This document shows, piece after piece, positions 4,725 to 35,725 of a stretch of 60,721 nucleotides of DNA. Below the pieces are notes generated by a model, which worked only from the letters and a program-made list of their open reading frames with translations, was not told where the DNA came from and did no database searches. The DNA is from Lachnospiraceae bacterium (GTDB lineage: Bacteria; Bacillota; Clostridia; Lachnospirales; Lachnospiraceae): NCBI GenBank assembly GCA_016281335.1, contig JAEEIK010000128.1, forward strand, positions 1-60,721, written 5' to 3'. Each line of letters starts with the position of its first letter. Within the stretch, counting starts at the first letter, position 1. The translations under genes and the position numbers were made by a program.

Positions 4725-5465
4725 ATGTCAGTTAAAGACGAAGTAAAATTATGTCCTAAGTGCGGAGCCAAACATTCGGAAAATGAATTAAAATGTCCGT
4801 ATTGCGGATACTATAATGACAGTTTATCCTTAAAGAGAGAAGAAGAGAAACTGGAAAACCTTCATGAAGAACACCTTAAGACCATGAAGGAAATGCCTGC
4901 AGAAATGGTAACAAAAAGCAGACGCAGGATGTTTACTCTTCTTGCTCTTTTTGTTATTGCGGCTGTTATCATCATAGCTGTCATAATGATCGTATCAGAT
5001 ATGATCGATAAAAAAGACTACAATGATATGCAGGCATATATGGCAGAACTTGAAGAACTCTACAGTAACGGAAAATATGATGAGCTCTTTGATGCGTATT
5101 ATAATAACTCGCGATTTCACGGAAGCAGTTTCGGAAAATATGAAAATACCGCAGATGTGGCCAATGCAAGATATTATGCGGTAAAGAGCCTTAAGGACTG
5201 TTATGATAAAAACGGAAATGCTGATGAGCTGGCAGAAGCATTGAGAAAAACTTTCCGCTGTCTTAAACTGGCGCAGAGACTGCGTGATAAAGGATTCATC
5301 TACGGTGAAAAAGAAGCGGTGGAAAGCATAGAAGCAGAGATGCTTGATGCGATCAGGGATACGTATGCTTTAACTGATGAAGATATAGAAGAAGGCATTA
5401 ATGCATACGACGGTTATGACAGCGATTATTCTGAAATGGCGGAGCGTATACTGAATGGAATGTAA
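4725..5465 (+). CDS. Zinc-ribbon membrane protein, first of three paralogues
   Basis: A 246-residue protein of unknown function. A zinc ribbon lies at residues 10-27 (Cys10, 13, 24, 27 in CPKC/CPYC knuckles), then a charged helical linker, one membrane segment at about 70-91, and a helical C-terminal part probably outside the membrane. Near residues 113-123 it carries the pattern Y-x2-G-x-Y-x2-L-x-D, which recurs in the next two genes. It begins two bases after gyrB with no clear Shine-Dalgarno, so it probably depends on coupling to gyrB translation. Its end overlaps the next gene by 11 bases. The zinc ribbon is clear; the function is not. Confidence 0.85.
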   Translation: MSVKDEVKLCPKCGAKHSENELKCPYCGYYNDSLSLKREEEKLENLHEEHLKTMKEMPAEMVTKSRRRMFTLLALFVIAAVIIIAVIMIVSDMIDKKDYNDMQAYMAELEELYSNGKYDELFDAYYNNSRFHGSSFGKYENTADVANARYYAVKSLKDCYDKNGNADELAEALRKTFRCLKLAQRLRDKGFIYGEKEAVESIEAEMLDAIRDTYALTDEDIEEGINAYDGYDSDYSEMAERILNGM

Positions 5466-6159
5466 AAACTGCGGGGCCAGCTATAAATTAACCAAATTGC
5501 GCTGTCCCTATTGTGAATCGGAAAATTTCATAGGTAAGATGCTGCTCTTAAAACGCACTGATACAATCAGGCAATATGAGCGTGAGCAGAAAGAAGCTAA
5601 AGTACGTTATATTCCTTATGTAGCGAGCAAGCTTGTAAATACAATGCTACTGTTTTCACTGCTAATGATAGTGATCCTTGGGGTTTTATTTACCGGCTTT
5701 AACGGAGAAAATTCTTATGCCAGTAAACTTTACAGGGAAGGAAGATATATGGAACTTCACGATTACATGTCCTCTTTCGATATGTTTCAGGATCTTCCTA
5801 AATATATGAGCCAGGCGGCTTTGCTGACATATGATTATAATGAGTTTCTTTCTCACAGAATGGCATATGTGGATGATGATCCTAATGAATGGGATCCAAC
5901 ATACATCTCTCTGGCGATGAGAGAGGCAATGGATATATATATCCTGGAAGTCGGAGTATACAGCGGTGAATTCAGACAGAATGAAGAAATGTATAAAGAA
6001 TACCGTGAACGCATAATGGCATTTTGGAGAGGGACCATGCTCTGTGATGATGAAGATATTGCATTCCTGACCGAGCCGGAAAACTTCTGGCATCAGACTT
6101 ATATAACTGAGATGGCTGAAAAACTTAAGGAAAGGAGAATCGAAAAAGATGGAAAATAA
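5455..6159 (+). CDS. Zinc-ribbon membrane protein, second paralogue
   Basis: The 234-residue product repeats the plan of its upstream neighbour: a zinc ribbon at the extreme N-terminus (Cys3, 6, 17, 20), a basic linker, one membrane segment at about 62-82, and a helical domain that opens with LYREGRYMELHD (residues 92-103), which is the shared Y-x2-G-x-Y-x2-L-x-D motif. The start ATG lies inside the end of the previous gene and the stop overlaps the start of the next by 11 bases, so the three form one translationally coupled unit. Function is unknown. Confidence 0.83.
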   Translation: MECKNCGASYKLTKLRCPYCESENFIGKMLLLKRTDTIRQYEREQKEAKVRYIPYVASKLVNTMLLFSLLMIVILGVLFTGFNGENSYASKLYREGRYMELHDYMSSFDMFQDLPKYMSQAALLTYDYNEFLSHRMAYVDDDPNEWDPTYISLAMREAMDIYILEVGVYSGEFRQNEEMYKEYRERIMAFWRGTMLCDDEDIAFLTEPENFWHQTYITEMAEKLKERRIEKDGK

Positions 6160-6595
6160 AAATATTTATCGTTCTCCTAAACCCCTTGGTTTTATCCTGA
6201 GAATGTTATTACTGGCATTCAATATGTTTCTGGTAATAGCAGGCTGTTTCAGCGCTGCAAAGAATATGGGTCTGATAAAATTCAGGAAGTTCAGTTCGGC
6301 AGAAGACAGGACTTTTTATGATTCATATTATTACAAAGGACAGTACGGATCATTAAGAGATCTCTTTTATCTGCATGATTTACCGGATAATGAAGTATAC
6401 GGAAAATTTTGGGAGATCATAAGGGCAGCAGAACATAAAAATGCTTATGATGATTTCAGCAAGGCAAAAGAACTTGGGTATTATGACGGCGATAAGGCAG
6501 AAGAAGAACTGTCCATGCTTAAAGAAATGGCAGCTAATCCGAAATACCCGGAAAATAAGGAAAAAATCAATAAACTTGTTTCTGAAGTACAATGA
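6149..6595 (+). CDS. Membrane protein, third paralogue without zinc ribbon
   Basis: A 148-residue protein with one predicted membrane segment (about residues 14-34) followed by a short helical domain. The motif Y-x2-G-x-Y-x2-L-x-D is present at residues 61-71, which links it to the two genes upstream, but the N-terminal cysteine knuckles are absent. An AGGAG in the end of the preceding gene lies about 9 bases before the ATG. It looks like a shortened member of the same family. Function unknown. Confidence 0.78.
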   Translation: MENKNIYRSPKPLGFILRMLLLAFNMFLVIAGCFSAAKNMGLIKFRKFSSAEDRTFYDSYYYKGQYGSLRDLFYLHDLPDNEVYGKFWEIIRAAEHKNAYDDFSKAKELGYYDGDKAEEELSMLKEMAANPKYPENKEKINKLVSEVQ

Positions 6596-6647
6596 TGCTA
6601 TGATTTAATCGTTTGGCAGACGGATAATAAACGGAGGCAAAGATATC

Positions 6648-7235
6648 ATGAAAAAGTTAATGATCATTATTCTTATAGTAGCGGCTGTATTTGTTTTCGT
6701 AACAGCCTGCGGTAAAAACGTAGTCGGAGTCACTCTTGATACGGACAGAGCAGAAGAAGAAAAGAAAGCGGAAGAAAAAGAAGAAGAGCCCGTATCGGAA
6801 CCGGAAGAAGCGGTAAAACCTGAAGAAAACGAAGAACCGGCAGAACCTGATACAAAACCCCAGACTGCTTCGGGAGATGTGATCGTAGAGATCAGCTGGG
6901 ATGAAACAGACGTTACGTTTTTTGAAGATTCATTACTCATGAATTATTCACTGGAAGATGTATGTCAGCCCTGTGTATATATAGAAGGAGAAAGCGTGCA
7001 GCGTCAGGTATTTATCGAAGATAAGCTGCATACAGAAAAACTGACCATCACGGATCCGAATGAATTTGTAAATATAACGGTACAGCCCTGCCAGCCTTCC
7101 AATTACTGTCCTCTGGATACTGCAAGCGCTACCATAACTTATGCAGACGGTACGGTAAAGAATCTTGCCGCAGATGAAATGAAGGTCCGCGGACAGACAG
7201 GAATATGGTATCTGGACGTATATACACAAAATTAA
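6648..7235 (+). CDS. Lipoprotein with acidic linker, unknown function
   Basis: The 195-residue product has a type II signal peptide: MKKLM, a hydrophobic run, and lipobox VTAC with Cys21 as the lipid-anchored residue. An acidic Glu/Lys/Pro linker (about 33-77) follows, then a compact domain of about 110 residues with no motif I recognise. ACGGAGG precedes the ATG. It is expected on the outer face of the cytoplasmic membrane. It is separated by only 13 bases from the double zinc-finger gene downstream, so they probably form an operon. Confidence 0.82.
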   Translation: MKKLMIIILIVAAVFVFVTACGKNVVGVTLDTDRAEEEKKAEEKEEEPVSEPEEAVKPEENEEPAEPDTKPQTASGDVIVEISWDETDVTFFEDSLLMNYSLEDVCQPCVYIEGESVQRQVFIEDKLHTEKLTITDPNEFVNITVQPCQPSNYCPLDTASATITYADGTVKNLAADEMKVRGQTGIWYLDVYTQN

Positions 7236-7248
7236 GCGGAGATAAAAA

Positions 7249-8319
7249 ATGAATGTATGGACCTATTGGAAATGTCCGTCCTGCGGGGCGATTATAAGGG
7301 GAGATAACAGAGACTGTCCCAACTGCGCCACACCGGTGCCTGCAGGAACAAAATATCTGATGCCTGACAATCCCGAAGTAGCGAGAGCCATAGAGAACGG
7401 TACCGCATATATCACTTCCCACGACATGGTGGAGGAAGCGGTAACACAGGTATCCGAAGAGAAAAAGAGTGACAAGGCTAACTGGGTCTGCGATTACTGC
7501 GGATATCAAAACCGTTTTGAAAGTACGGTATGTGAGGGCTGCGGCGCTCCGAAGGAAGAATCGAAGAAGGACTATTTCACACCTGTTCCGGAAACGCCTA
7601 AACCTCAGCCTTATATTCCGACAAGAAGACCATCCGGAAGATTTAAAAAACTGATACCTGTCATTGCGGTGATACTCTTCCTGATATGGCTGTTTACACC
7701 GGTCACCAGAAAGACCGTGATATCCGGCTTTGAATGGATGAGGAGCATAGCGGTAGATGAATACCAGCTCTGTCATGAAGATGACTGGAGCCTGCCGGCA
7801 GGAGCCACGCAGACTTCTACCAAACAGGAGATACATCATTACGATCATGTCATAGATCATTATGAGACCAAGACCAGACAGGTATCCGAACAGGTGCTGG
7901 ACGGTTATGATACGGAATACAGAGATCTTGGTAACGGGCAGGCAGAAACTGTATCGGTGCCGAGATATCGTACGGAATACAGAACCGAAACCTATGAAGA
8001 TCCGGTATATAAAGATGTCCCGGTATATCAGACCAAGTATTATTATGATATAGACAGATGGGTAACAGTTTCAAGTATAGATACAAGCGGTAAAGACCAT
8101 GATCCCAAATGGGGTGAATCGGATCTTCCGGAATCGGTGGCATCACCGGTATACGGAGACCGTAAGCTGGGACAGCGAAGCGAAAGATACTATATACATT
8201 TCAAAGATAAAAAAGGAAACGAGCAGACAGAAGAATACAATTTCAGTGAATGGTCGGAATATAAACTTGGTGATGCGATAACTTATAAATCCTTCAGATT
8301 CTCAAACAAACCGTTATAA
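7249..8319 (+). CDS. Membrane protein with zinc ribbon and RanBP2-type zinc finger
   Basis: A 356-residue protein with two different cytoplasmic zinc modules: a zinc ribbon (Cys9, 12, 23, 26) and a RanBP2-like finger at residues 79-98 (pattern W-x-C-x2-C-x3-N-x6-C-x2-C). One membrane segment follows at about 134-150, then an external domain rich in Tyr, Thr and acidic residues with Y-E/D-T-K and Y-R-T-E-Y elements. RanBP2 fingers bind ubiquitin or RNA in eukaryotes; no such role can be inferred here. The gene ends just before a hairpin terminator. Domains are clear, function is not. Confidence 0.83.
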   Translation: MNVWTYWKCPSCGAIIRGDNRDCPNCATPVPAGTKYLMPDNPEVARAIENGTAYITSHDMVEEAVTQVSEEKKSDKANWVCDYCGYQNRFESTVCEGCGAPKEESKKDYFTPVPETPKPQPYIPTRRPSGRFKKLIPVIAVILFLIWLFTPVTRKTVISGFEWMRSIAVDEYQLCHEDDWSLPAGATQTSTKQEIHHYDHVIDHYETKTRQVSEQVLDGYDTEYRDLGNGQAETVSVPRYRTEYRTETYEDPVYKDVPVYQTKYYYDIDRWVTVSSIDTSGKDHDPKWGESDLPESVASPVYGDRKLGQRSERYYIHFKDKKGNEQTEEYNFSEWSEYKLGDAITYKSFRFSNKPL

Positions 8320-8330
8320 ACGTATCAATC

Positions 8331-8366
8331 AAAAAGGCCATGGGAACTTTTCCTATGGCTTTTTAA
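8331..8366. terminator. Bidirectional terminator between convergent genes
   Basis: AAAAAG-CCAT pairs with ATGG-CTTTTT around a short AT-rich centre, with one bulged G on the left arm. A-run and T-run flank the stem, so it can work on both strands. The stop codon of the minus-strand gene lies inside the T-run. Confidence 0.75.
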
Positions 8367-9268
8367 TCTAATACACTCATAAGCATGCGAGCTTTTTCGA
8401 GTCGTTTTTCCGGAGACTTTACTTTGAATTTTTCCCTTCCGGATATGTGATCCGTATAATAACGAAGTCCCAGTTCAAAGCAGATCTTGTTGATCACATC
8501 GGGAAGCTTTATCATGTCCTGATTACTGATCAGACCGAAAGATCTGGAAAAATAACCTTCGATCAGATACTTGGATGCTTCGTGATCCATGCGTCCGTTT
8601 ACCAGACAGCAGGAACGTATGCAGTCGGCAAGGTCTTCGAGCAGAGAACCCTGCATGATGGTATCGAGATCGATGAAGGTTAAGACCTGTCCGCCTTTGA
8701 ACAGCATATTTCCGAGCTTGGCATCGCCGTGAACTACAGCGGTCCTGTCAAGTTCTATTGCCAGCAGCTTATCAACCCAGGCATTGATCTTATCTTCAAC
8801 ATAGCTGTCTCTCAGCGTATCATCAAAATCATTTCCTACAAGAATGCTTATGTATTCTTTATAATAATATTTAAGATCATGAAGCATCGGATAGACCGCC
8901 CAGGGTTTGTCGGTAAAGGTCTGAAGCACGGAGTGCAGTCTGGCCAGTCCCTGACCTGTAGCGTACAAAAGGTTCTGTGAAAGAGGCGGTTCCAGTATAT
9001 CACCACAGATATAGGGATAAGTTCTCCAGTGATCGCCGTTGGCATCGGTGGAAATATACTTGCCGTCGCTTCCCTTGATCCATTCGGGATGAGGATAATT
9101 CGCTTTTTCGCAGGCTTCCGCATACAAAGAATAGTTGTGCTCAAGGATATCAATATCCATGGCACTGCGTATCCTTTGCGACACGTACCAGTCACTCATG
9201 GTCTCAACCAGGTAACTGTCGTTGATATGTCCCTCGCCCAGAGGTTTTACGGATAAAGCTTTACTCAT
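8363..9268 (-). CDS. APH-fold sugar kinase, N-acetylhexosamine 1-kinase-like
   Basis: The 301-residue product belongs to the aminoglycoside phosphotransferase/NahK-like kinase family. Key motifs are the N-terminal GEGHINDSY nucleotide loop, the catalytic VVHGDAKLGNMLF (Brenner-type H-G-D-x-K-x2-N) and the metal-binding FIDLDTIM. The I-D-L-D-T-x-M variant is typical of NahK-like enzymes that phosphorylate sugars at C1; the substrate here is inferred only. ATG 9268 is chosen because AAGGAG lies about 10 bases upstream on the minus strand; the ATG at 9292 has no such site. Its start overlaps the stop of the HD-GYP gene (ATGAGTAA), so the two are coupled. Confidence 0.85.
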   Translation of the reverse strand: MSKALSVKPLGEGHINDSYLVETMSDWYVSQRIRSAMDIDILEHNYSLYAEACEKANYPHPEWIKGSDGKYISTDANGDHWRTYPYICGDILEPPLSQNLLYATGQGLARLHSVLQTFTDKPWAVYPMLHDLKYYYKEYISILVGNDFDDTLRDSYVEDKINAWVDKLLAIELDRTAVVHGDAKLGNMLFKGGQVLTFIDLDTIMQGSLLEDLADCIRSCCLVNGRMDHEASKYLIEGYFSRSFGLISNQDMIKLPDVINKICFELGLRYYTDHISGREKFKVKSPEKRLEKARMLMSVLD

Positions 9269-10652
9269 GAAGAGTGTACTCCTTATCTTCATCGATTATC
9301 TCTATCATACACGCTGCAGCCTTCGGGTCAAACTGTGTTCCGCTGTTTTTCTCAAGTTCACTTCTTACTTTTTCCTGGTTAAGATATTTTCTGTAACTCC
9401 TGTTGGAAGTCATAGCATCATAACTGTCTGCAACGGCTATTATCCTGGCAGAAAGGGGAATGTCCTCACCGCTCTTCTGATCCGGATATCCTTTACCATC
9501 GTATCTTTCATGATGCCATCTGGCACCGGTACCAAGGTCGGGACGGCTCTTTATCTCATCCAGTATATCAAAACCTACGCCGGGATGTATCTTTATCTTA
9601 GAATATTCTTCATCGGTAAGAGGTCCCGGGCTGTTGATGATCTCATTGGGCACAGCTATCTTGCCTATATCATGAAGCAAGCCATAATAGTATACATTCT
9701 CACAGTCGGTTTCGGAAAGCCCCATTTTTTCGGCGATCATTTTAGAATATTTTGCCACGCGCACCGAATGACCTCTGGTATAGGAATCCTTGGCATCTAT
9801 GGTATGCGCAAGGGCTTCCATGACTTCGACGGAAAGAGTCTTGATCTCTTTGTTGGCTTTTTCTGCCTCGTTCATAAAGATGATATTTTTGGTGATAACA
9901 TGAAAAGATATCATCAGAATAAGGAGGATCACGGTGATGGAACTGTATGAAAGAACAGTTAAGCAATTGCTGTTGAAATACAGATAAGCCTTTACGGATT
10001 TCATATCTCCCATAACAGGAATGTTTTTGTCAGTCAGAGCCTTCATTACATTAACATACAGATCAGCTACGGCATCCGGTTCGCTTATTACGATTGCAAG
10101 TATGGCGAATACCAAAGCACTGAACAGATAAGCGACTACGGGCAGCAGGACAAAAAGCAGGATATTTGTTTTCAGTTTTTCTCCGGCAATAACACACATA
10201 GGCTTTATGGTCAGGAAATAAAACATGATCATTAAAGCAATATTGATAATAACCAGGATCCAGACGGCTGATGATAATGCAAATAATGTGATATTAGGTA
10301 AGAGCAATATATTGCAGACATAAATGAACACAGCTATGGGAGGACTCACTGCTTTTACTATCTTAAGGTAAAGAAACAGAGTTACAGTCTGAAAGATCAA
10401 CTGAACGCCGAAAAGCAGAGTGATAGTAAGCAAAATATCCCCCAGATCATCTTCCAGGGAAAAGACATATGAAATAAATCCACTTGCTAAAGAAGTAAGA
10501 GCAAAACTGCAAAGAGGAGAAACAAGCACAAGTAAAAAACCTTTCAAAACCGAAAGCTTTTTAAAGAAAAGCTTCTTAGTTACGAAAATAAAGTAAATAA
10601 GAGAAATAACACATAATATCTCATAATTAAAGAAAGTGCTATCATACTCCAT
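9261..10652 (-). CDS. Membrane HD-GYP domain protein (c-di-GMP phosphodiesterase)
   Basis: The 463-residue product has six or seven hydrophobic segments in its first 255 residues and a cytoplasmic HD-GYP domain after that. The metal-binding HD is at residues 327-328 (HDIGKIAVP) and the diagnostic HHERYDGKGYP at 380-390. HD-GYP proteins hydrolyse cyclic di-GMP; all catalytic residues are present, so activity is likely. The integral membrane N-terminus probably senses a signal, not identifiable here. GAGGAG precedes the ATG on the minus strand. It is divergent from the PP2C/kinase locus and shares a 282-base spacer with it. Confidence 0.9.
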   Translation of the reverse strand: MEYDSTFFNYEILCVISLIYFIFVTKKLFFKKLSVLKGFLLVLVSPLCSFALTSLASGFISYVFSLEDDLGDILLTITLLFGVQLIFQTVTLFLYLKIVKAVSPPIAVFIYVCNILLLPNITLFALSSAVWILVIINIALMIMFYFLTIKPMCVIAGEKLKTNILLFVLLPVVAYLFSALVFAILAIVISEPDAVADLYVNVMKALTDKNIPVMGDMKSVKAYLYFNSNCLTVLSYSSITVILLILMISFHVITKNIIFMNEAEKANKEIKTLSVEVMEALAHTIDAKDSYTRGHSVRVAKYSKMIAEKMGLSETDCENVYYYGLLHDIGKIAVPNEIINSPGPLTDEEYSKIKIHPGVGFDILDEIKSRPDLGTGARWHHERYDGKGYPDQKSGEDIPLSARIIAVADSYDAMTSNRSYRKYLNQEKVRSELEKNSGTQFDPKAAACMIEIIDEDKEYTLHE

Positions 10653-10788: not shown

Positions 10789-10817
10789 TTGACAGAAAGA
10801 GCGAAAAATTATATAAT
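10789..10817 (+). promoter_or_regulatory. Consensus sigma-A promoter of the PP2C/kinase locus
   Basis: TTGACA (10789-10794), a 17-base spacer and TATAAT (10812-10817): a perfect match to the vegetative consensus. Transcription should start near 10824, about 110 bases before the PP2C start codon. Confidence 0.88.
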
Positions 10818-10889
10818 ATGCCCAAATCGGTGTTTATGGAGTTTAAGTAATGGATGTGTCAATCATCTGAAGTATAGGCTTGCGGAGAA

Positions 10890-10913
10890 GGGGACCGGAC
10901 TGTCCCCTTTTTT
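10890..10913 (+). terminator. Terminator-like hairpin in the PP2C leader
   Basis: GGGGAC (10890-10895), loop CGGACT, GTCCCC (10902-10907) and six T. It lies between the consensus promoter and the PP2C ribosome binding site, so it would attenuate the whole locus unless bypassed. CCGGA at 10895-10899 could alternatively pair with TCCGG at 10921-10925 next to the Shine-Dalgarno. Whether it is regulated cannot be seen from sequence. Confidence 0.7.
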
Positions 10914-10934
10914 CCGTGTTTCCGGAGGAAAAAA

Positions 10935-11927
10935 ATGTTACTTAGAGGCTACGGATTAACTCATCAGGGAAATGTAAGGCAGAATAACGAAGACAACTTC
11001 TATCTGTTCGGAAAATATAAAAAAGATGTAAATATGCTGACGCTGGAAGAAGAAGGAGAAATGCCCGATCAGCTTGCGCTGGCCGGAGTATTTGACGGAA
11101 TGGGCGGAGAAGAAGCCGGTGAGATAGCTTCCCTCATTGCAGCTGAAGGTGTAAGCCCGAGCGGTATAGAGACAGCTGAGAATTCAGCCAAAGAACAGAT
11201 AATCAGGATCAATGATAAAGTCTGCGAAGAAATAAGAAGAAGACAGGCAAGAGTCGGGACTACGGCTGTCCTGTTGTATTTTGATAAAGGTGAAACAGTA
11301 AGTGTCAATATAGGAGACAGCAGGGCTTATTGTTTACGCGGCGGAAAACTTATACAGCTTTCCAAGGATCATTCCGAAGGACAGTCCATGGTTGATATGG
11401 GTGTCTTCACTGAGGAAGAAGCAAAGAAGAATAAGGCCTGGCATAAGCTGACTCAGCATATCGGTATTTTTCCGGAGGAATTTATAATAGAACCTTACAG
11501 TTCCGGAAGAATGAAAACGGAAGACGGCGATATCTATCTGCTCTGCAGTGACGGACTGACAGATATGCTGTCAAATGAAGAGATAGCATCAATAATGATG
11601 CAGAACTCGGGAACCGGTCTTTCAGCTATGGCCCATGCTCTGAGAGATGCCGCATTACAGGCAGGCGGTAAGGATAATGTTACCGTAGTACTGGTCAGGG
11701 CAAGTAACAACGCAGAAAATAACAGTAACGGAAATAAAGGAAAAGATATATTAAAACACACGATCATCGGTGTTCCGGTCGTAGCAATGCTGCTGCTGGG
11801 AGTAGTTCTGGGAGTAAAGGCTATAAAGTCAGAGGATGATGAAGCGAAAGAATCAAAAGTAAAAACAGAAAAAGAAGTCGTTTCCGATAACATAATAATG
11901 AATATATTAAAAAAGGAATTGCAGTAG
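10935..11927 (+). CDS. PP2C-type Ser/Thr protein phosphatase, membrane-anchored
   Basis: The 330-residue product is a metal-dependent phosphatase of the PPM/PP2C family that would reverse the action of the kinases downstream. Motifs in order: RQNNEDN near the N-terminus, GVFDGMGGEEAG (metal-binding Asp), VNIGDSRAY, LCSDGLTDML and GKDNVTVVLV. A single membrane segment lies at about 277-296 and a charged tail follows, unlike the soluble PrpC/Stp. CCGGAGGAAAAAA precedes the ATG. It is first in a series of genes on the same strand and is separated by nine bases from the first kinase. Confidence 0.93.
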   Translation: MLLRGYGLTHQGNVRQNNEDNFYLFGKYKKDVNMLTLEEEGEMPDQLALAGVFDGMGGEEAGEIASLIAAEGVSPSGIETAENSAKEQIIRINDKVCEEIRRRQARVGTTAVLLYFDKGETVSVNIGDSRAYCLRGGKLIQLSKDHSEGQSMVDMGVFTEEEAKKNKAWHKLTQHIGIFPEEFIIEPYSSGRMKTEDGDIYLLCSDGLTDMLSNEEIASIMMQNSGTGLSAMAHALRDAALQAGGKDNVTVVLVRASNNAENNSNGNKGKDILKHTIIGVPVVAMLLLGVVLGVKAIKSEDDEAKESKVKTEKEVVSDNIIMNILKKELQ

Positions 11928-11936
11928 GGAAGGGTA

Positions 11937-13307
11937 ATGGAACACGGTCTGGAATACTATAAAGCGCTTGAACCGTTTTGGGGTTTTTGGCGGATAAAAG
12001 ATCTGATAGGCGAGGGCGCATACGGAAAAGTATTTGAAGTAGAGAGGCAGGATTTCGATAAGGTATATCGTTCTGCCATGAAAGCTATTACCATCCCTCT
12101 GTCTGAAAGTGAGTGGAAAAGCATTTTATCCGAAGGGATGGACGAGATCACCGCTACCAGTTACTATAAAGGATTTGTAAAAGAACTGATAGAAGAGATC
12201 TCTCTTATGAATACCCTGCGGGGACACAGTAATATCGTAAGTTATGAGGATCATGCCGTTATCGAAAGAGAAGACGGACACACCTGGGATGTGCTGATGC
12301 GAATGGAATTGCTGACTCCCCTGGTAGATACACTGACAGCCGGCGGTTCCATGGAAAGAAAAGAAGCGATCAAAATGGGTATCGATCTGTGTACGGCGCT
12401 GGAGGTATGTGCGCAGAAGAATATCATACACAGAGATATAAAACCGGAAAACATATTTATCTCCCCGCTTGGCTATTATAAACTCGGAGATTTCGGAATA
12501 GCCAGAAAGCTGGAACAGACCATAGGAGGTCTCTCAAAGAAAGGCACGTATTCTTATATGGCGCCGGAAATATACAAGGGTGAGCCTTACGGAGCCGGAG
12601 TGGATATATACTCTTTAGGAATGGTATTGTACAGAATGCTGAATAAGAACAGAGGAGTATTCCTGCCGCAGTATCCTAATCCGATAGGGTATAACGATAA
12701 AGAAGAGGCTATAAGAAAGAGGATGACGGGAGAAACCATACCGCTTCCTTTAGATGCTCAGGATGAACTGGGCAGGATAGTATGTAAAGCCTGTTCTTAT
12801 GTACCCGGAGAAAGATTTAAAAATCCCACGGAATTTAAAAAAGCGCTGCAGTCCGTACTGGAAGGAAAAATTCAGGTCAGTGAAGAAATAAAAAAACCTC
12901 CCGTGAAAGAGGAAGTAATAAAAGAAGAAAAACCGGAGATTAAAACAGAGATCAAACAAGAGATCAAAGCGGAGAGTAAAATCGAAAGCAAGCCGGAAAA
13001 CAAAGCAAAGACTGTAAGTAAACCGCAGAAATATGACTGGACCAAAGATCTTAAAGTAAAAGACAGCATAAATGATCTGAGAAAAAAGATAATGGAATTA
13101 AAAAAGAAACGGTCAAATCCGTTTGCCAATAAGTCTTCCATTGAAAGAGAAATACTCGGAAGCTGGGAAGTTGTTGTGAGTAACCTGAAAACAGCGATAA
13201 AAAACAGTGATGATGTTGCATGGGAGATATATCTGATATATCCGACTGATTATACACAGGAAAGAATAACGGAATTAAATCCGAGAGTAGGAAAAAAGTT
13301 TTTATAA
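11937..13307 (+). CDS. Eukaryote-like Ser/Thr protein kinase 1 (soluble)
   Basis: A 456-residue Hanks-type kinase with all catalytic elements: glycine loop GEGAYG (25-30), Lys49 in AMKAI, HRDIKPEN (165-172), DFG (185-187) and APE (209-211). A Lys/Glu-rich linker (about 320-370, repeats of K-x-E-I-K) joins it to an uncharacterised C-terminal domain of about 80 residues. No membrane segment is visible, unlike PknB/PrkC. Its first 215 residues closely resemble the kinase encoded at 14170, sharing ALEPFWG/SLEPFWG, EGMDE and RMELLTP, so they are tandem paralogues. PASTA repeats are absent. Confidence 0.93.
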   Translation: MEHGLEYYKALEPFWGFWRIKDLIGEGAYGKVFEVERQDFDKVYRSAMKAITIPLSESEWKSILSEGMDEITATSYYKGFVKELIEEISLMNTLRGHSNIVSYEDHAVIEREDGHTWDVLMRMELLTPLVDTLTAGGSMERKEAIKMGIDLCTALEVCAQKNIIHRDIKPENIFISPLGYYKLGDFGIARKLEQTIGGLSKKGTYSYMAPEIYKGEPYGAGVDIYSLGMVLYRMLNKNRGVFLPQYPNPIGYNDKEEAIRKRMTGETIPLPLDAQDELGRIVCKACSYVPGERFKNPTEFKKALQSVLEGKIQVSEEIKKPPVKEEVIKEEKPEIKTEIKQEIKAESKIESKPENKAKTVSKPQKYDWTKDLKVKDSINDLRKKIMELKKKRSNPFANKSSIEREILGSWEVVVSNLKTAIKNSDDVAWEIYLIYPTDYTQERITELNPRVGKKFL

Positions 13308-13321
13308 CATGGAGGTAGAAT

Positions 13322-14167
13322 ATGCAGAATAACAGAGATGATCAGTATGATGTTACTATCGGTTTCATGAATATGGGCAGATCGCAGAATCCGCAGATGC
13401 CTGCCGGTCAGCCGGCAATGCCTCCGGTAAACAATATTCCGCCTGCAACGGCAGTACCTCCGGTACCTGCAACGACTCCTGCAGCTGCTGTTAATCCGGT
13501 TCCCGTTGTTAATCCGACTCCAGTTGTCAATCCGACACCGGCTGCCAATCCGATTCCGGTTCCTAATCCGGCGCCGGCGGCAAGCCCGGTAAATATGTAC
13601 AGAGGTCCTGTAGTGCAGGGTGATGACAGCGAGAAGACGATCGGCATGTTTTCTTATATGAAGCCTCCTGTAAATAAACCGGCACAGCCGGCTGCTGTTC
13701 CTCCGATGAATAACATACCGCCGACAGCGGCAGTGCCCCCGGTAAACAGTATACCGCAGCCACCCGTACCTCCCGTAAATAACATACCGCAGCCATCTGC
13801 GCCTGTGAATAACGGAGCTAAATCTCAGGATGATATGTTTGAAAAAACAGTAGGAATGTTTTCAGGTATACCGCCCATTCCTCCTGCAGCAAGGCCTGCA
13901 GCGGCAGTGCCTCCCGTGCAGCCCGTAAGACCGACACCGCCTGTTACTCCGGTACAGACGCCGCCTGTTCAGCCGGTTACGCAGGATGCAAAGAAAGATA
14001 CAGGAAAAGTGAGTATCGGCGGTATAATCCTTCTGTTGCTAGGCCTGGTATATATAGGCTTTAATATCGGAGTATTAATTCACGGCTTTACGTTTGCGAT
14101 CATATTTATGATAGTAGGTATCGCATTGGTAGTAGCAGGTGTAAAGAAAATAAAGGACAGTAACTGA
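13322..14167 (+). CDS. Proline-rich membrane protein, candidate kinase substrate
   Basis: The 281-residue product is dominated by Pro/Ala/Val/Asn repeats (PVVNPTP and PPVNNIP units) and ends with two hydrophobic segments (about 229-276). Three spaced copies of an acidic-Thr motif stand out: YDVTIGF (residues 9-15), EKTIGMF (104-110) and EKTVGMF (174-180), each preceded by Asp-rich residues. They resemble phosphothreonine motifs of kinase substrates such as GarA (ETTSVF). The gene lies between two kinase genes, 14 bases after one and two bases before the other, and GGAGG precedes the ATG. The substrate role is an inference; no FHA domain is encoded nearby. Confidence 0.85.
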   Translation: MQNNRDDQYDVTIGFMNMGRSQNPQMPAGQPAMPPVNNIPPATAVPPVPATTPAAAVNPVPVVNPTPVVNPTPAANPIPVPNPAPAASPVNMYRGPVVQGDDSEKTIGMFSYMKPPVNKPAQPAAVPPMNNIPPTAAVPPVNSIPQPPVPPVNNIPQPSAPVNNGAKSQDDMFEKTVGMFSGIPPIPPAARPAAAVPPVQPVRPTPPVTPVQTPPVQPVTQDAKKDTGKVSIGGIILLLLGLVYIGFNIGVLIHGFTFAIIFMIVGIALVVAGVKKIKDSN

Positions 14168-14169
14168 TC

Positions 14170-15855
14170 ATGGAATACGGCATAGATTATTACAAGTCTC
14201 TGGAACCTTTCTGGGGTGAGTGGAGAATAAGCAGAACCCTGGGAGAGGGCGCATACGGAAAAGTATATGAGGTGGAACGTATCGATTTCGGAAAACGGTA
14301 CGTATCTGCCTTAAAAGCCATTACTATTCCGCAGTCGGAAAGCGAATGGAAATCCGTCTGCTCCGAGGGAATGGATGAGAAATCCGCTACAGCGTATTTT
14401 ATGGATGTTATCTCAGGCATAGTAGACGAGACTGCTTTAATGAATCAGCTAAAAGGACACGGAAATATCGTGTCTTATGAAGATCATAAAGTCGTCGAGC
14501 ATGAAGATAAGCATGGCTGGGATATATTTATCCGTATGGAATTGCTGACGCCTTTTCTGGATAAGTATGATACTAATGATTCGGTGCCTGTTGAAGAAGT
14601 AGTCAAACTGGGGATCGATATTTGTAAAGCCCTTGAATTTTGTCACGGCAGAAATATCCTTCACAGAGATATCAAGCCGGAGAATATTTTTGTCACTGAT
14701 TACGGAGCATATAAGCTCGGAGATTTCGGTATAGCCAGAACCGTGGAAAAGACCATGGGTTCCATGTCCAAAAAGGGAACCTATAACTATATGGCTCCCG
14801 AAGTATATCTGGGAAAAGCCTATGACCGAACAGTAGATATATATTCATTGGGAATAGTTCTGTATCGCTTACTGAATCATAACAGACCGCCATTCTATCC
14901 CGCATATCCTGAGCAGATATTATATGAACATAAGGAGACCGCGCTGCAGAGAAGGATGAGAGGAGAGGAGCTCCCCGATCCCGATCAGGCAACGGAAATA
15001 CTTGCAAAGATAATAAAGAAAGCCTGCGCCTACAAAGCGGAGGATCGTTATCAGAATGCAGAAGAATTCAGAATAGCGCTGGAAAAAATGGAAGCTCCCG
15101 AGGAGAAGAAGGAGGAAACGCAGACACCACCGGTTATTCAGACCAGTGAGACTAAAACGATCCCGCAGCCATCATCTGAAGAAGTCAAAAAGAAACCGGA
15201 TAAATATTATAATGATCCGAAAAAGCAGCTGAAAAAACAGATCAGCACATACAGACAGATAAATCTGGGAATAATCTTTGCAGTATCGATAGGAATACTG
15301 TTGATATCAGAAGAAACAGGTATAAAAATCATGCTGATAGTTCCCTTTATCGTGGCGCTGGTTATTTTAATAACAGGATTCGCCAAAAGAAAACGCATTA
15401 ACCATGAACTGGTGAAAGAAATGACGGCGCAACAACAGCTGCCGTTAAAATGGTATAAGTTTATTGCCAATGTTTATCCTTTTCTGTGCATTGTTGCAGG
15501 AGCATTCGGTGCGGCTAATACTATTGTAAGAGGCCGATTAGGAGACATATGGTCGTACATGATCATATGCCTTGCAGAGATAATCGTGGCTGTAATAGCA
15601 CGCAAAAAGATCAAAAGCGGATCCGATAAGATGTATATTATGCTTTATGCAATGCTTGATCTGGCATCGATACAAGCAATATTCAGTGTTCCTGCCATGC
15701 CCGAAATGTATGAAATGATTTATTATATTCTGAATATGGACTTTACGTCTGTACTGATAATGGTATGGATAATAGTTATTATTTTAAGAATAGTGTTTAT
15801 CAATCTGAACGTTAAGTATTTTGAAAAACGCAGATTTCAATTGATCAGAAAATAA
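14170..15855 (+). CDS. Eukaryote-like Ser/Thr protein kinase 2 (polytopic)
   Basis: A 561-residue kinase with glycine loop GEGAYG, Lys49, HRDIKPEN (about 167-174), DFG and the APE motif, all intact. After a short charged linker the C-terminal half contains about six membrane segments (roughly residues 358-555), an arrangement different from one-span PknB-type kinases. The kinase domain is a paralogue of the one at 11937. It starts two bases after the proline-rich gene, so co-translation is likely. The polytopic half may sense a membrane signal; this is conjecture. Confidence 0.92.
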   Translation: MEYGIDYYKSLEPFWGEWRISRTLGEGAYGKVYEVERIDFGKRYVSALKAITIPQSESEWKSVCSEGMDEKSATAYFMDVISGIVDETALMNQLKGHGNIVSYEDHKVVEHEDKHGWDIFIRMELLTPFLDKYDTNDSVPVEEVVKLGIDICKALEFCHGRNILHRDIKPENIFVTDYGAYKLGDFGIARTVEKTMGSMSKKGTYNYMAPEVYLGKAYDRTVDIYSLGIVLYRLLNHNRPPFYPAYPEQILYEHKETALQRRMRGEELPDPDQATEILAKIIKKACAYKAEDRYQNAEEFRIALEKMEAPEEKKEETQTPPVIQTSETKTIPQPSSEEVKKKPDKYYNDPKKQLKKQISTYRQINLGIIFAVSIGILLISEETGIKIMLIVPFIVALVILITGFAKRKRINHELVKEMTAQQQLPLKWYKFIANVYPFLCIVAGAFGAANTIVRGRLGDIWSYMIICLAEIIVAVIARKKIKSGSDKMYIMLYAMLDLASIQAIFSVPAMPEMYEMIYYILNMDFTSVLIMVWIIVIILRIVFINLNVKYFEKRRFQLIRK

Positions 15856-15875
15856 AGGATTACTGGTACCGTTGT

Positions 15876-17945
15876 ATGCTATTGAATGAACAATTGCCGG
15901 ATGTATATGAAGTAAAAAGTGAGATAGGATCCGGAGGCGGAGGCACGGTCTTTTTGGCATGGCATAAGAATCTTAGAAAAGATGTCGTGATCAAGAAGAT
16001 CCATGATTATATTTCCGATGAAGAGATACAGCGAGTCGAGGTAGATATACTTAAGAACCTGCATCATCCTTATCTGCCGCAGGTATTTGACTACTTTACC
16101 ATAGACGGAGTAGGTTATACTGTAATGGATTTTGTTCAGGGTGAAAGCCTGAAACAGATGACAGATAAAGGAAAAGTATTTTCCGAAAAAGAAGTGCTTA
16201 AGATCGGTAACCAGCTTACCGAAGCTCTGGAATATCTGCACACGAGAATACCTCCGATCATTCACGGAGATATCAAGCCCGAAAATATAATATATACGCC
16301 GGAAGGAAATATCTGCCTGATAGATTTCAATATATCAGGCATATCAAAAGACGGAAAGGCAAGAACTTTCGGATGTACTCCGGGATACAGCGCTCCGGAG
16401 CAGGTCAGAGATGTCAGAAAAATGATGGAGCTGATAGAGAACGGCTCTATGACTGCACAGGTAGAGGGTGTTCCGATAGATAAAAGATCCGACGTGTACA
16501 GTGTCGGAGCAACACTGTATCGTATTTATACCGGCAGAAAATTTAATTCTGAAGATGTTAATGTTCTTAAAGGAGGAACCGGAGAAGGATTATTATACAT
16601 ATTTAATCATTCGCTGCAGGAAGATCCTGCTAAACGTTTTTCCGATGCAGCAGAAATGCACAGAGCCTTTCAGAATATTCATAAAAAAGACCGGAAATAC
16701 CGGATGATGATATCAGGTCAGATTCTGACACAGCTGATACTGATGGTAATGTGTCTGGCAGGTGTATGGCTGATCATTAACGGAAGGATAGAACTCAGAA
16801 AAGAAAAACAGGAACAGTATGACGGATACATTAAAGAAATGTCAAAGATCAGCGAAACAAGTCTTACTGAAGATCCTGAATTTGATGAGTTGTTTGAAAA
16901 AGCCTCAGCCTTTTATCCCGATCGTCTGGAAGCATATTATCAAAAAGCAATATATCTGTATCAGCTCGGCAGGTATGAAAAAGACTGTATCTTTATAGAA
17001 TCGGATATACTGACAAATGAGATATTAAGCGGACAGGACGATATGCCCGGTGTATATGCCATACTGGGAGAAGCATATTTTGCGCTTAAGGATTATGAAA
17101 GCGCTGCGGATAATTATGAAAAGGCCATCGATCTCAAAGCAGAGGATCCGGAACTGTATGTATCCTATGCCATAGCATTGGCAAGGAACGGAGAAACCGA
17201 TATAGCCAAAGAAGTCATGGAGACCGCAAAAGAAAAGAAAGCAGGAAATGACAGGATACTGCTTATCATGGGAGAAATAGAAAGCCGCGAGAAAGATTAT
17301 AAAATGGCTGAAAAGCATCTGCGTGAATGTATAGGCTATGCGGAAGATGATTATACAAAGTATAGGGCATATCTGGGATGTGCCTTAGCCATATCGGGAC
17401 AGATACCGGATTTTGCTTATGATGATGAAGCAAAGAAACAGGAGGCTGAAGAACTATCCGATAAGGAGATAGAATTATTAAAGGATGCTCTGGTTTCACT
17501 TCCTTCCGAATATGAAAACCGGATATTGCATCAGCTGGGAACAGTATATCTGTATCAAAGAGACCAGCTGAAAGATTCCGATGCGTTGAAGCAGGCAATA
17601 GGAGTATATGAGCGTTTGTATGAGAACGGAGAAAGCGATGTATCGATCTGTGATACACTTGCCAATCTGTATTACGAAGCAGGCGAATATGATAAAGAAG
17701 AGGAAATGCTCAAAAAGCTGGAAGAGATAAAGCCTGATGATTATTCAGTTGTGATCAGATACGCGATGATAGAATGTGCAAGAGAAAATGACAAGGAAGA
17801 AAGCAAAAGAGACTATACACGTTTTCTTGAATATTATAACAAGGCAAATCTGCTGATAGATAAACAGGTAGATGAAGCTGTAAGAAATGATGATATGTAT
17901 GTGAAAACTCTGAGATGGAGTTCTTTTTTGTGGCAACTGTGGTAG
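15876..17945 (+). CDS. Ser/Thr protein kinase 3 with TPR repeats, altered C-terminus
   Basis: A 689-residue protein: N-terminal kinase domain (G-S-G-G-G-G loop 18-23, Lys40), one membrane segment (about 280-300) and a long external TPR-like region (about 340-680). The catalytic loop reads HGDIKPEN (Gly replaces the Arg of HRD, a non-RD kinase) and the metal-binding motif is DFN instead of DFG at 150-152; both variants keep the essential Asp residues. The last residues (after about 678) come from a different gene: the frame runs into a zinc-ribbon gene at about 17911-17914 and stops out of frame. The natural C-terminus seems to be lost. Confidence 0.88.
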   Translation: MLLNEQLPDVYEVKSEIGSGGGGTVFLAWHKNLRKDVVIKKIHDYISDEEIQRVEVDILKNLHHPYLPQVFDYFTIDGVGYTVMDFVQGESLKQMTDKGKVFSEKEVLKIGNQLTEALEYLHTRIPPIIHGDIKPENIIYTPEGNICLIDFNISGISKDGKARTFGCTPGYSAPEQVRDVRKMMELIENGSMTAQVEGVPIDKRSDVYSVGATLYRIYTGRKFNSEDVNVLKGGTGEGLLYIFNHSLQEDPAKRFSDAAEMHRAFQNIHKKDRKYRMMISGQILTQLILMVMCLAGVWLIINGRIELRKEKQEQYDGYIKEMSKISETSLTEDPEFDELFEKASAFYPDRLEAYYQKAIYLYQLGRYEKDCIFIESDILTNEILSGQDDMPGVYAILGEAYFALKDYESAADNYEKAIDLKAEDPELYVSYAIALARNGETDIAKEVMETAKEKKAGNDRILLIMGEIESREKDYKMAEKHLRECIGYAEDDYTKYRAYLGCALAISGQIPDFAYDDEAKKQEAEELSDKEIELLKDALVSLPSEYENRILHQLGTVYLYQRDQLKDSDALKQAIGVYERLYENGESDVSICDTLANLYYEAGEYDKEEEMLKKLEEIKPDDYSVVIRYAMIECARENDKEESKRDYTRFLEYYNKANLLIDKQVDEAVRNDDMYVKTLRWSSFLWQLW

Positions 17946-19044
17946 TAAGATAGAAGCTGTACCGGAAACGGAGATAAAGAAGAAAAAGAGTATACTGCCC
18001 TTTGTAATTATTGGTATGGTTTTGATACTTGCGATAATTGCTGTAGTCTTATTTGTAGTGAAGGGCAGTACGAAGGGTAAGTATGAGAAACAGCTGAAAG
18101 TGGCAGAAAGATATCTGGAAGAATTGGATTATGAAAGGGCTGTAGCTGCATATAAGAAGGCGATAGAGATAGATCCGAAGAAACCTGAAGCTGTAACAGG
18201 TATGACGGATGCATATGTTGCTTGGATCAAAGAAGAATTGGATGTGTTGAATATAGAAATAGCTGAAGGTCGCATAAGTGCTGCTTTGTCAGCTTTGGAT
18301 GATGCTGAAAAATACGGAGCTGATGAAGAACTGATCGAAGAGCAGAAAGAAAGGATCGAGAGATTAAGACCGGAAGAGAAGAATACGGATAATGTTGAAG
18401 AAGCAGATGAATTGTCAGTAAAGACAAACGAATTAATAAATTATTATGAAGAATACAGGAATGAAAAAGATACTCTGACACAACAGGAGAAAGACGAAAA
18501 ATATACTTATTATGCACAGGAATTTGAAAATTATATTGCATTATATATTGATACAAACGGAACAGGGGATTGTACATGCGGTATATTGGATGATAGTGGC
18601 TGGCACAGAAATGATAAGGATTATTTTGATATCGGAAATGCTTATGATTTAGCTATCAGTTTTCGATTAATGACAGATGATGAGGATAAAGCATGGAAAC
18701 TAAGGAGTGAACAGGCACAGAACTCAGGATTAACTGTCTTATTGGAAGGTTTTACATGTGTTCTTGATAGTGATAATCCTATATATTATGACAATAGCGG
18801 ACAGGTAATTACAATAGAACATGATGGGGGTGGCACCATGAATGCAACGAGTACATACGATAAGTTTGGACGTGTAATTGCTATTGATGAATACGATGAA
18901 GAAACTGATAAAACATGGCATATGGAATATGTATATGGTTCGAGAAACAGGATAATAAGAAGATATGATTATAATCATTGGACAGAAATACAATATGATG
19001 AAAATGGGAATATGATAAATTCTGCCATAGAAATTGTGGAATGA
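17914..19044 (+). pseudogene. 5'-truncated zinc-ribbon/TPR membrane protein gene
   Basis: From 17914 one frame encodes DGVLFCGNCGSKIE, the second half of a zinc ribbon, then a membrane segment, a TPR-like unit (ERAVAAYKKAIEID) and a C-terminal region with Rhs-like YD motifs (YDKFGRV, YDENGN). It closely matches the intact gene at 19103, but the start codon and first CxxC knuckle are missing; TGA lies in frame at 17911-17913. The beginning overlaps the end of kinase 3 in another frame, so a deletion seems to have joined the two genes. Translation could restart at ATG 18016 inside the membrane segment, giving 342 residues, or occur through +1 slippage at the T6 run (17924-17929). Confidence 0.72.
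17962..17990 (+). repeat. 29-base direct repeat shared with 19184-19212
   Basis: The same 29 bases, starting CCGGAAACGGAG and ending AAGAAAAAGAG, occur at 17962-17990 and 19184-19212. Both encode the P-E-T-E-I-K4-S segment just before the membrane helix of the zinc-ribbon paralogues. Such identity could support recombination between the two genes. Confidence 0.85.
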
Positions 19045-19102
19045 AAGGTATTATTTCGAATGATCGGAGAGATATCTGGAAGATATGAGACGGGGAAAAA
19101 CA

Positions 19103-20356
19103 ATGGTTTGTGATAAATGCGGAAACAAAATAGCAAAGGGAACAATGTTTTGCGGGAACTGCGGAAATAAGATCGAAGTAATGCCGGAAACGGAGATAAA
19201 GAAGAAAAAGAGCATTTTGCCGTTTATAGTAGTAGGTATTCTTCTGGTGATAGGCATAATCGCAATAGTGGTTATGACAGTTAAAAGCAATCCGGACAGA
19301 AAGTATGAAAAGCAATTGAAAATAGCGCAGAGATATGTAGATGAGCTGGATTATGAAAAAGCGATAGCAGCGTATAAGGCAGCAATCGAGATAGATCCGA
19401 AGCGACCGGAAGCATATCTGGAACTGGCAGAGGTATATGAAGAAAACGGTAATTATGATGAAGCTGTACGGATATTAAAAGAAGGATACGATAAAACCGG
19501 CGATGAAGAGATTAAGGATATGCTGGAACGCCTGGAAAAGAAGCTGCTGACATCGGATAATGATGTACAGAATGAAAACGAAGAAGCTGATAATAGCGTA
19601 GAAGCTGTTTCAAGAGAAGAACAGATAGAGAAATTCATTGAGAAATATGAACCTCTGATGGAGAAGATCGCTATAGAATATGAAGCGTTTGAGGGAGAAG
19701 GAAACGAGATCGGCTGGTATTGCGCTCCCCAGGATTATTACTCGAAATATCATTCGGATGAAATGCTAAAAGAGATATACAATCCTCTAATCACTGAATT
19801 AGAGGAATATAAAAAGGAAATAGCGGAACTGAATTTTGAAGGTGAGGAAGAAATAGACGGACGGATTTATAAAGGTCAGGAGGAACTTGAAAGCTATTGT
19901 CAAAAGTATTGTAAGAAATCAGGACAGGTATTCTTAACGGAAGATATCGCTGAATTATTCCTGTACCAGTATTATCTGTGGGTTGGAGATATGGAGAAAC
20001 GCGCCGCCCTGGCACCGAAACTTATCGGCTGTCCATACATATACAGCGGTGAAGAAGGAACGACATATGACCAATACGGCAGGGAAATACATGCGGTATA
20101 CCGGGATGGTTCGGTAACTGATTATACTTATGACGGTAACAGACTGATCCATCAGAGATCGGATTCATCGCAATATGTGGATATGACCATGGAATATGAT
20201 GCAAAAGGCAGAATGACCGTATTTATTCAGGATTATAATGGCGATACAACAACATATTATTACGAGTATACGGATGATCATAATATAGTGGAAAAATGGG
20301 AGGATCATGAAAGCGGAATAACCATTGATGAGTACGGCGGTGTTCATTTTGAGTAA
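19103..20356 (+). CDS. Zinc-ribbon membrane protein with TPR and YD-type C-terminus
   Basis: The intact paralogue of the truncated gene upstream. From ATG 19103 (chosen because the family starts MxCxxCG; the frame is open to ATG 19085) the 417-residue product has a zinc ribbon (CDKCG and CGNCG), a basic KKKKS stop-transfer segment, one membrane helix, a TPR-like unit (EKAIAAYKAAIEID), a helical region and a C-terminal stretch with Rhs-like YD motifs (YDQYGREI, YDAKGRM). Function is unknown. It is the last gene of the kinase locus, ahead of the promoter of the polysaccharide cluster. Confidence 0.85.
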   Translation: MVCDKCGNKIAKGTMFCGNCGNKIEVMPETEIKKKKSILPFIVVGILLVIGIIAIVVMTVKSNPDRKYEKQLKIAQRYVDELDYEKAIAAYKAAIEIDPKRPEAYLELAEVYEENGNYDEAVRILKEGYDKTGDEEIKDMLERLEKKLLTSDNDVQNENEEADNSVEAVSREEQIEKFIEKYEPLMEKIAIEYEAFEGEGNEIGWYCAPQDYYSKYHSDEMLKEIYNPLITELEEYKKEIAELNFEGEEEIDGRIYKGQEELESYCQKYCKKSGQVFLTEDIAELFLYQYYLWVGDMEKRAALAPKLIGCPYIYSGEEGTTYDQYGREIHAVYRDGSVTDYTYDGNRLIHQRSDSSQYVDMTMEYDAKGRMTVFIQDYNGDTTTYYYEYTDDHNIVEKWEDHESGITIDEYGGVHFE

Positions 20357-20370
20357 TAAATGAAAGAAAA

Positions 20371-20399
20371 TTGAAATATCCTGAGCTTTTTAGTATAAT
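20371..20399 (+). promoter_or_regulatory. Sigma-A promoter of the polysaccharide cluster
   Basis: TTGAAA (20371-20376), a 17-base spacer and TATAAT (20394-20399) within TAGTATAATA. The first gene of the cluster begins at 20438, leaving a leader of about 30 bases. Confidence 0.8.
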
Positions 20400-35086: not shown

Positions 35087-35725
35087 ATGTTTTGTACTTA
35101 CTGTGGGGCCGAGATAAATGACAATTCCAAATTTTGCCCCAAATGCGGTAATAAGATAGATGATAATGCCATAGTTAAAGAGTTTCCGATAAAGAAGATA
35201 TTAATACCGGTAATAGTGGCAGTTCTGGTAATAGCGATAGTTGCCGAGATCATAATCTTTGCAGGCAAGGCCGGCAAGTCGAAAGACGGTGATGATGACA
35301 AGCCTACGACTTCAACGGAAACAGAGGCAACACCTACAATAGAACCGACACCGGAACCGGAAGCAACGGCAACGCCGGCACCTACGGCTACATCGACACC
35401 TACGCCGAAGCCGACCGCAACGCCGACACCGGAGCCGACGGCTACGTCGACACCGACACCGGAGCCGACCGCAACGCCGACACCGCTGCCGACTGCAACA
35501 CCTACGCCAAAGCCGACACTGGCACCGACACCTACGCCTGTACCTGTGGCAACGGCAACTCCGATACCGGAACCTACGGCGACGCCCGTACCCGAACCGC
35601 AACCGGAGCCTGAACCGGAACCCGAACCCGAGCCGGAACCTGAACCGCAACCGCAGCCGACTTCAGCGCCGGATCCTAAGCCGGACAATCCTAAGAAGCC
35701 GACGCCCATACCGATAGATATGTAA
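35087..35725 (+). CDS. Zinc-ribbon membrane protein with Thr-Pro-rich tail
   Basis: A 212-residue protein: zinc ribbon (CTYCG and CPKCG within the first 22 residues), one membrane segment (about 43-63) and a long external tail made of T-P-T-P/E-P-T-A repeats ending in (EP)n. The tail probably spans the cell wall and could be glycosylated; nothing catalytic is present. It has its own promoter and a terminator-like hairpin, so it seems monocistronic. It is one of seven zinc-ribbon proteins in the window. Confidence 0.85.
   Translation: MFCTYCGAEINDNSKFCPKCGNKIDDNAIVKEFPIKKILIPVIVAVLVIAIVAEIIIFAGKAGKSKDGDDDKPTTSTETEATPTIEPTPEPEATATPAPTATSTPTPKPTATPTPEPTATSTPTPEPTATPTPLPTATPTPKPTLAPTPTPVPVATATPIPEPTATPVPEPQPEPEPEPEPEPEPEPQPQPTSAPDPKPDNPKKPTPIPIDM

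Follow-up and report, generated by a model that had tools for sequence, protein, structure and literature searches.

A run of seven genes in a Lachnospiraceae genome (GenBank assembly GCA_016281335.1) encodes a PP2C phosphatase, three Ser/Thr kinases (K1, K2, and K3), a proline-rich membrane protein (PRO), and two TPR membrane proteins (ZT_A and ZT_B). In PRO, a threonine motif is present three times, and the same motif is found repeatedly in the linkers of kinases related to K1 and K2. In other genomes, kinases of this family are encoded at many loci near genes for type VII secretion or FHA proteins, but neither WXG100 nor EssC was found in the genome studied here. Taken together, this points to a stand-alone threonine-phosphorylation module, in which type-VII-like kinases and a PP2C would act without the secretion machine and PRO would offer phosphothreonines to an FHA reader, a reading to which we give about an even chance. 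The window, i.e. the whole stretch of DNA analysed, comprises 60,721 nucleotides of contig JAEEIK010000128.1 and contains no tRNA genes.

According to the ORF reading of the window, the seven ORFs extend from 10935 to 20356 on the + strand, as the sequence-only reading of this DNA had stated. They are separated by gaps of 9, 14, 2, 20, 70, and 40 bases; the range of 2-40 bases given earlier holds for five of these six gaps, the remaining one having 70 bases. The consensus promoter of the earlier reading was found again as a sigma-70 promoter-like site, TTGACA-17-TATAAT (10789..10817, + strand), with 12 of 12 consensus positions and a 17-base spacer. It is the sole 12/12 site among 46 sites listed, shuffled sequences having 37 sites on average. 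In the 5' leader, a terminator-like hairpin (10888..10913, + strand) was read from sequence and fold, consisting of six mostly G-C pairs plus two A-T pairs and a following T run, some 20 bases ahead of the start of PP2C. As the gene upstream of the promoter-like site is divergent, this hairpin may be an attenuator of the PP2C-kinase operon. It is not listed by the terminator scan, a search for known RNA elements gave no Rfam match on the + strand of the leader, and the fold of the whole leader is little better than that of shuffles (z -1.5; 17 of 200 equally stable). A second promoter-like site with 11/12 positions (20371..20399, + strand) lies ahead of the next gene cluster and suggests that the putative operon ends here. 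More zinc-ribbon proteins with predicted TM segments are encoded near gyrB at 4725-8319 and 35087-35725 of the window.

The gene kinds named in the sequence-only reading were confirmed with Pfam and a hydrophobicity scan made for this analysis, from which all TM counts are taken; the exception is one of its two zinc ribbons, as ZT_A has no complete one. PP2C (10935..11927, + strand; Pfam 3.3e-16) has one C-terminal TM segment and scores 168.8 bits with the NCBIfam Stp1 model, below the cut-off of 230. K1 (11937..13307, + strand; Pfam Pkinase 5e-39) is a soluble Ser/Thr kinase with 0 TM segments and K2 (14170..15855, + strand; Pfam Pkinase 4.3e-41) is a polytopic Ser/Thr kinase with about five. 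Both contain HRD and DFG and are 57-58% identical over the kinase domain. By the established catalytic-motif rules for PP2C and kinases, the translations of PP2C, K1, and K2 contain the usual catalytic motifs. K3 (15876..17945, + strand; Pfam Pkinase 1.6e-38, TPR matches) is a TPR kinase with one TM segment and a C-terminus altered at a junction described below. In K3, HGD and DFN replace HRD and DFG; as the same replacements are present in 5/5 relatives compared, this looks like a subfamily trait rather than a local defect. The best 60 of 376 solved relatives are other protein kinases only, with PknB first (1.4e-24). Like the PASTA kinases PrkC/Stk with Stp/IreP, the locus combines a Hanks-type kinase with a PP2C in one operon. 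In contrast to PrkC/Stk, no PASTA was found in K1-K3 by the Pfam scan, as had been noticed before, and the genome, with seven Pkinase and three PP2C_2 matches, keeps a PASTA kinase (L051, three PASTA stretches) with an adjoining PP2C gene on another contig, C109. Thus, the K1-K3 locus is a second system, which bears out the earlier view of a signalling set separate from PrkC/Stp.

PRO (13322..14167, + strand) is encoded between K1 and K2. It has 281 residues, 20% of them proline, two C-terminal TM segments according to the hydrophobicity scan, and no Pfam family. Its three [DE]-x-T-[VI]-G-[MF]-[FM] motifs have their threonines at aa 12, 106, and 176. Shuffling of PRO yields a mean of 0.0006 copies and a maximum of 1 (20,000 shuffles), and 853 other proteins from the same loci, with 279,041 aa, hold three copies together. 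The earlier inference that PRO is a substrate gains support from these motifs and their recurrence in kinase linkers, an argument absent from the sequence-only reading. PRO was found in 1/35 genomes of the genus set and 1/392 genomes of the order, the only one in each case being its own, in a search with a low-complexity query that a diverged relative could escape. As no relatives of PRO were found, motif conservation within PRO cannot be checked and the gene order is not conserved. The conserved neighbourhood of both kinases with PRO that the sequence-only reading had envisaged is therefore not borne out, PRO being absent from the 34 other genus genomes and the 391 other order genomes; the gene order is seen in this genome only, an outcome that this reading had itself listed as refuting it.

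The relatives of K1 and K2 were collected in a census of 69 sources (the window to 26000, L038-L043, L052-L073, and L108-L147), which yielded 66 loci with a family kinase and 86 kinases in total. L043, L072, and L073 have no family kinase under the census filter, and L044-L051 and the K3 loci L094-L105 stand outside the census. The 66 loci were counted without removal of duplicates: L111/L112 lie at two positions of a single contig and agree in their gene sizes, and L070/L130, both counted, appear to be the same contig drawn from two collections. Some stretches stop at contig ends. In the linkers, defined as the segment between the kinase domain and the first TM segment, T[VI][SG]-hydrophobic-[FYWL] occurs in 13 of the 86 kinases with 21 copies, compared to 0.22 on average and at most 3 in 500 shuffles. 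With F, Y, or W at +4, the motif is absent from the remainder of the 86 kinases outside the linkers. Allowing M at +4 gives 27 sites, which are distributed over linkers (22), PRO (three), and two other neighbours, namely an OmpA-domain protein in L053 and a TPR protein in L066. An acidic residue, D or E, occupies position -2 at 25/27 sites, the exceptions being L042 and one of L122; D+E make up 17.5% of the linkers. When each locus contributes a single site, position -2 is acidic in 8/10. Position +5 is G, D, S, or N at 24/27 sites. The first motif scan followed the reading of PRO and demanded D, E, or K at -2, a requirement that was dropped in later scans. At L068 (6924-19216), five family kinases are encoded in a row, four of them with the threonine motif and one with four copies in its linker.

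Parsimony on the kinase tree requires eight or more changes of state for the motif, as would fit a short linear motif that is repeatedly gained or lost. The motif is absent from K1 and K2, as it is from 73/86 family kinases; in some relatives the motif is located on the kinase itself, whereas here it is located on the separate membrane protein PRO. Neighbours in general show no enrichment of the loose motif, with 7 copies in 238,986 aa near the kinases and 2 in 40,336 aa further off, and an FHA gene is present in the stretch at just 3/9 motif-bearing loci. A genome-wide search with an exact DNA pattern, which demands G at +2 and F at +4 and misses the first PRO copy and all serine forms, gave 3 forward matches, two of them in PRO, versus 4 in the reversed control. 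For PknA sites of M. tuberculosis, the available parts of PMC7164672 list acidic residues (-1, -3 to -6), Pro (-1, +2), Leu/Val (+3), and basic residues (+4) as enriched. The hydrophobic +3 of the family motif agrees with this list, from which acidic -2 and aromatic +4 are absent. The absence of the motif from K1 and K2, the few FHA genes at motif-bearing loci, the lack of enrichment among neighbours, the genome-wide count, and this partial fit weigh against the module reading. The motif is named in none of the titles and abstract openings listed for kinases, type VII secretion, FHA, and phosphothreonine motifs, which include few subscription papers, so that this is weak evidence of absence; the string TVSLF is likewise absent from seven papers listed among these matches.

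A PP2C is encoded within 7 kb of a family kinase at 36/66 loci, a type VII marker (WXG100, DUF4176, or EssC cluster member) within 7 kb at 19/66, and both together at 17/66. FHA proteins are encoded in the stretch at 23/66 loci; this number and the 19/66 for type VII markers are raw counts. The PP2C and type VII clusters were formed by single-linkage BLAST with a Pfam check on representatives only, and the FHA counts derive from an HMM built from three seeds. Pfam-confirmed representatives near family kinases include EssC with FHA, WXG100, DUF4176, YukD, FHA-ABC transporters, and DUF6382-FHA. These ties of the kinase family to type VII secretion and FHA genes had been missed by the sequence-only reading, as had the K3/ZT_A junction. 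At L129, L136, and L147, family kinases are encoded 8 to 29 bases from genes for transporters that combine an ABC ATPase with two FHA stretches. At six further loci (L117, L121, L123-L125, and L127), the kinase lies near a conserved 400-aa protein and two very large genes (~1,240 and 1,285 aa), which resemble rpoC and rpoB. The 400-aa protein of L117, the one scanned, has no Pfam family; at its N-terminus, DFEQTV is present in 5/6 loci and DFEQTVAFD in 4/6.

The genome studied here (92.9% complete, 159 contigs) has 0 WXG100 matches at 0.001 and no FtsK/SpoIIIE match of EssC length. The FtsK/SpoIIIE matches are in frames of 939 (strong), 693, and 920 aa (two weak, on C32), compared to 1489 aa for EssC of L053. 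A tie to a type VII system within this genome was rejected on these grounds. One FHA protein was found, a DUF6382-FHA protein encoded on another contig than the locus. Its gene is located downstream of T2SSE, T2SSF, and Peptidase_A24 (prepilin-peptidase) genes and closes a Tad-type pilus-like cluster. In FHA domains, GR are the usual phosphothreonine-binding residues, the rule being GR, S-x-x-H, and N. The DUF6382-FHA protein has GK at the position of GR; EssC FHA domains of several relatives (e.g. L053 and L054) retain GR, S-x-x-H, and N.

In the GarA/OdhI FHA switch, the threonine follows acidic residues and precedes hydrophobic and aromatic ones. The motif threonine has the same surroundings but, unlike GarA/OdhI, PRO has no FHA match in Pfam. 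The TerY-P triad consists of a vWA protein with a PP2C and a kinase, whereas no vWA match was obtained among the nine proteins scanned with Pfam. For the newer type VII subtypes T7SSe and T7SSj, kinase, PPM phosphatase, and FHA components (TsxD, TsxF, and TsxJ) have been described, and TPR has been reported in the kinase TsjD, in the available parts of Garrett, Higginson and Palmer 2024 (PMC11217815). Like these sets, the locus has a membrane kinase and a PPM phosphatase adjoining, and one kinase (K3) with TPR; further likenesses are the DUF6382-FHA protein in the genome and the type VII genes near K1/K2 relatives. In contrast to these subtypes, no EssC or WXG100 was found in the genome, the locus has three kinases and PRO, and the FHA reader encoded in the same cluster in type VII-associated kinase/PPM modules was not found among the nine proteins scanned. 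The likeness to TsxD is drawn from the descriptions in these parts of PMC11217815. In the juxtamembrane domain of StkP, threonines are phosphorylated in a disordered kinase linker, with docking discussed as a possible role; the StkP substrate motif is matched by 0/7 sites, which the authors infer to lack conservation between homologues (PMC12077195, available parts). In contrast to this description of StkP, here one motif recurs, and in PRO it stands on a separate protein.

K3 and ZT_A meet at a deletion-like junction (17910..18016, + strand), where the end of K3 runs in another frame over the second half of a zinc ribbon without start codon. In the ZT_A frame, this second CxxC half directly follows an in-frame stop, precedes the first start codon, and lies inside the K3 end. 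No ATG, GTG, or TTG is available in frame upstream for the zinc-ribbon half, and the first start codon of ZT_A falls inside its own TM segment. The last ten residues of K3 differ from the ends of five relatives, and in the relative L094 a K3-like gene is followed by ZT_B-like zinc-ribbon genes with both CxxC halves. Compared with these, the last residues of K3 and the start and first zinc-ribbon half of ZT_A look lost at the junction, which is most simply explained by a genomic deletion or by an error in assembly. ZT_A (18016..19044, + strand) is a TM-TPR protein with one TM segment and a weak RHS-repeat match; its Pfam scan gave no zinc-ribbon match and TPR scores just below the curated cut-offs. 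ZT_B (19085..20356, + strand) is a zinc ribbon-TM-TPR protein with one TM segment and a Zn_Ribbon_1 score of 24.6 versus a cut-off of 25. As the start of ZT_A looks lost, a single complete zinc ribbon remains in the locus. To judge from the junction, part of the operon may be undergoing decay or may have been misassembled, which counts against the reading as a stand-alone module.

The loss of a start codon and the altered K3 end would be expected if the locus were non-adaptive or decaying, i.e. recently assembled accessory kinase genes with damaged K3/ZT_A and PRO as a fast-evolving spacer with meaningless motifs. The restriction of PRO, and hence of the gene order, to one genome also favours this explanation, and so does the sporadic distribution of the kinases. 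A search with the K2 kinase domain at 1e-45 gave a match in 33/392 order genomes, including its own, and in 22/173 genera, and close relatives within the genus set (its own genome and 34 others) are present in four genomes (G000, G010, G023, and G028). However, PP2C, K1, and K2 are intact with respect to catalytic motifs, tight spacing, and a perfect promoter-like site, the three motif copies of PRO are far beyond its composition, and in a 159-contig genome the junction could be an assembly error. A non-adaptive or decaying locus appears unlikely to us. A role as anti-phage defence kinases of the PD-T4-6 or MADS6 type is far less probable still and was discarded: the PADLOC models MAD6 and PD-T4-6 match K1, K2, and K3, but the NCBIfam MADS6 model reaches only 82-113 bits against a cut-off of 460, as for a generic kinase, and PP2C, PRO, and both TPR proteins have no PADLOC model match at 1e-5.

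Window 9261-35000, which is located near dnaN-recF-gyrB and holds an HD-GYP gene, the kinase locus, and a 14-kb polysaccharide cluster, is missing at this spot in the sister genome G024 (identities of 99% for GyrB, 96% for DnaN, and 90% for RecF). In G024, the genes matching window 8363-9292 and 35087-35725 adjoin each other with none of these three between them, and the block 6648-9292 is inverted relative to gyrB. G024 has no K3 relative at 1e-25 and a single distant K2 match (34% identical). The kinase locus is accessory. The shared absence and the position of kinase locus and polysaccharide cluster side by side on one strand would also suit a variable island whose regulatory half, the kinase locus, controls the cluster directly downstream, in which Pfam recognises glycosyltransferases and Wzy_C (Alg14-like and glycosyltransferase-28-like genes, further glycosyltransferases, and a Wzy_C ligase). 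However, a strong promoter-like site separates the two, a motif scan that reached 26000 of the window picked out no kinase substrate in the cluster, and variable islands can adjoin by chance. We consider direct control of the cluster improbable.

In the stand-alone module that we infer, K2 and K3, together with the TPR membrane proteins, would sense envelope or cell state, and the kinases would add phosphate to the threonine in each of the three acidic-x-T-[VI]-G motifs of PRO. The motif region of PRO is proline-rich, presumably disordered, and predicted to be cytoplasmic. Anchored in the membrane through its two C-terminal TM segments, PRO would then act as a multivalent dock for an FHA-domain protein, and PP2C would reset it by removing the phosphates. 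The DUF6382-FHA protein would be the leading reader by elimination only, as the sole FHA protein found in a genome of 92.9% completeness; its GK and its place on another contig speak against it. More tentatively, and with somewhat more doubt than confidence, [DE]-x-T-[VI]-[SG]-[ILVM]-[FWY]-[GDSN] may be a transferable phosphothreonine docking motif of these Clostridia through which type-VII-associated kinases connect with FHA readers, either in cis in kinase linkers with up to four copies or, as here, in trans on a dedicated membrane scaffold; the module could then be uncoupled from secretion and rewired, for example to a Tad pilus. Kinases, phosphatases, and FHA domains of the newer type VII subtypes have already been described; the motif is new here and provides concrete threonines, the available parts of PMC11217815 naming no phosphosite. 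If true, this would show how kinases of this family pick their partners and how such a module leaves secretion for another output.
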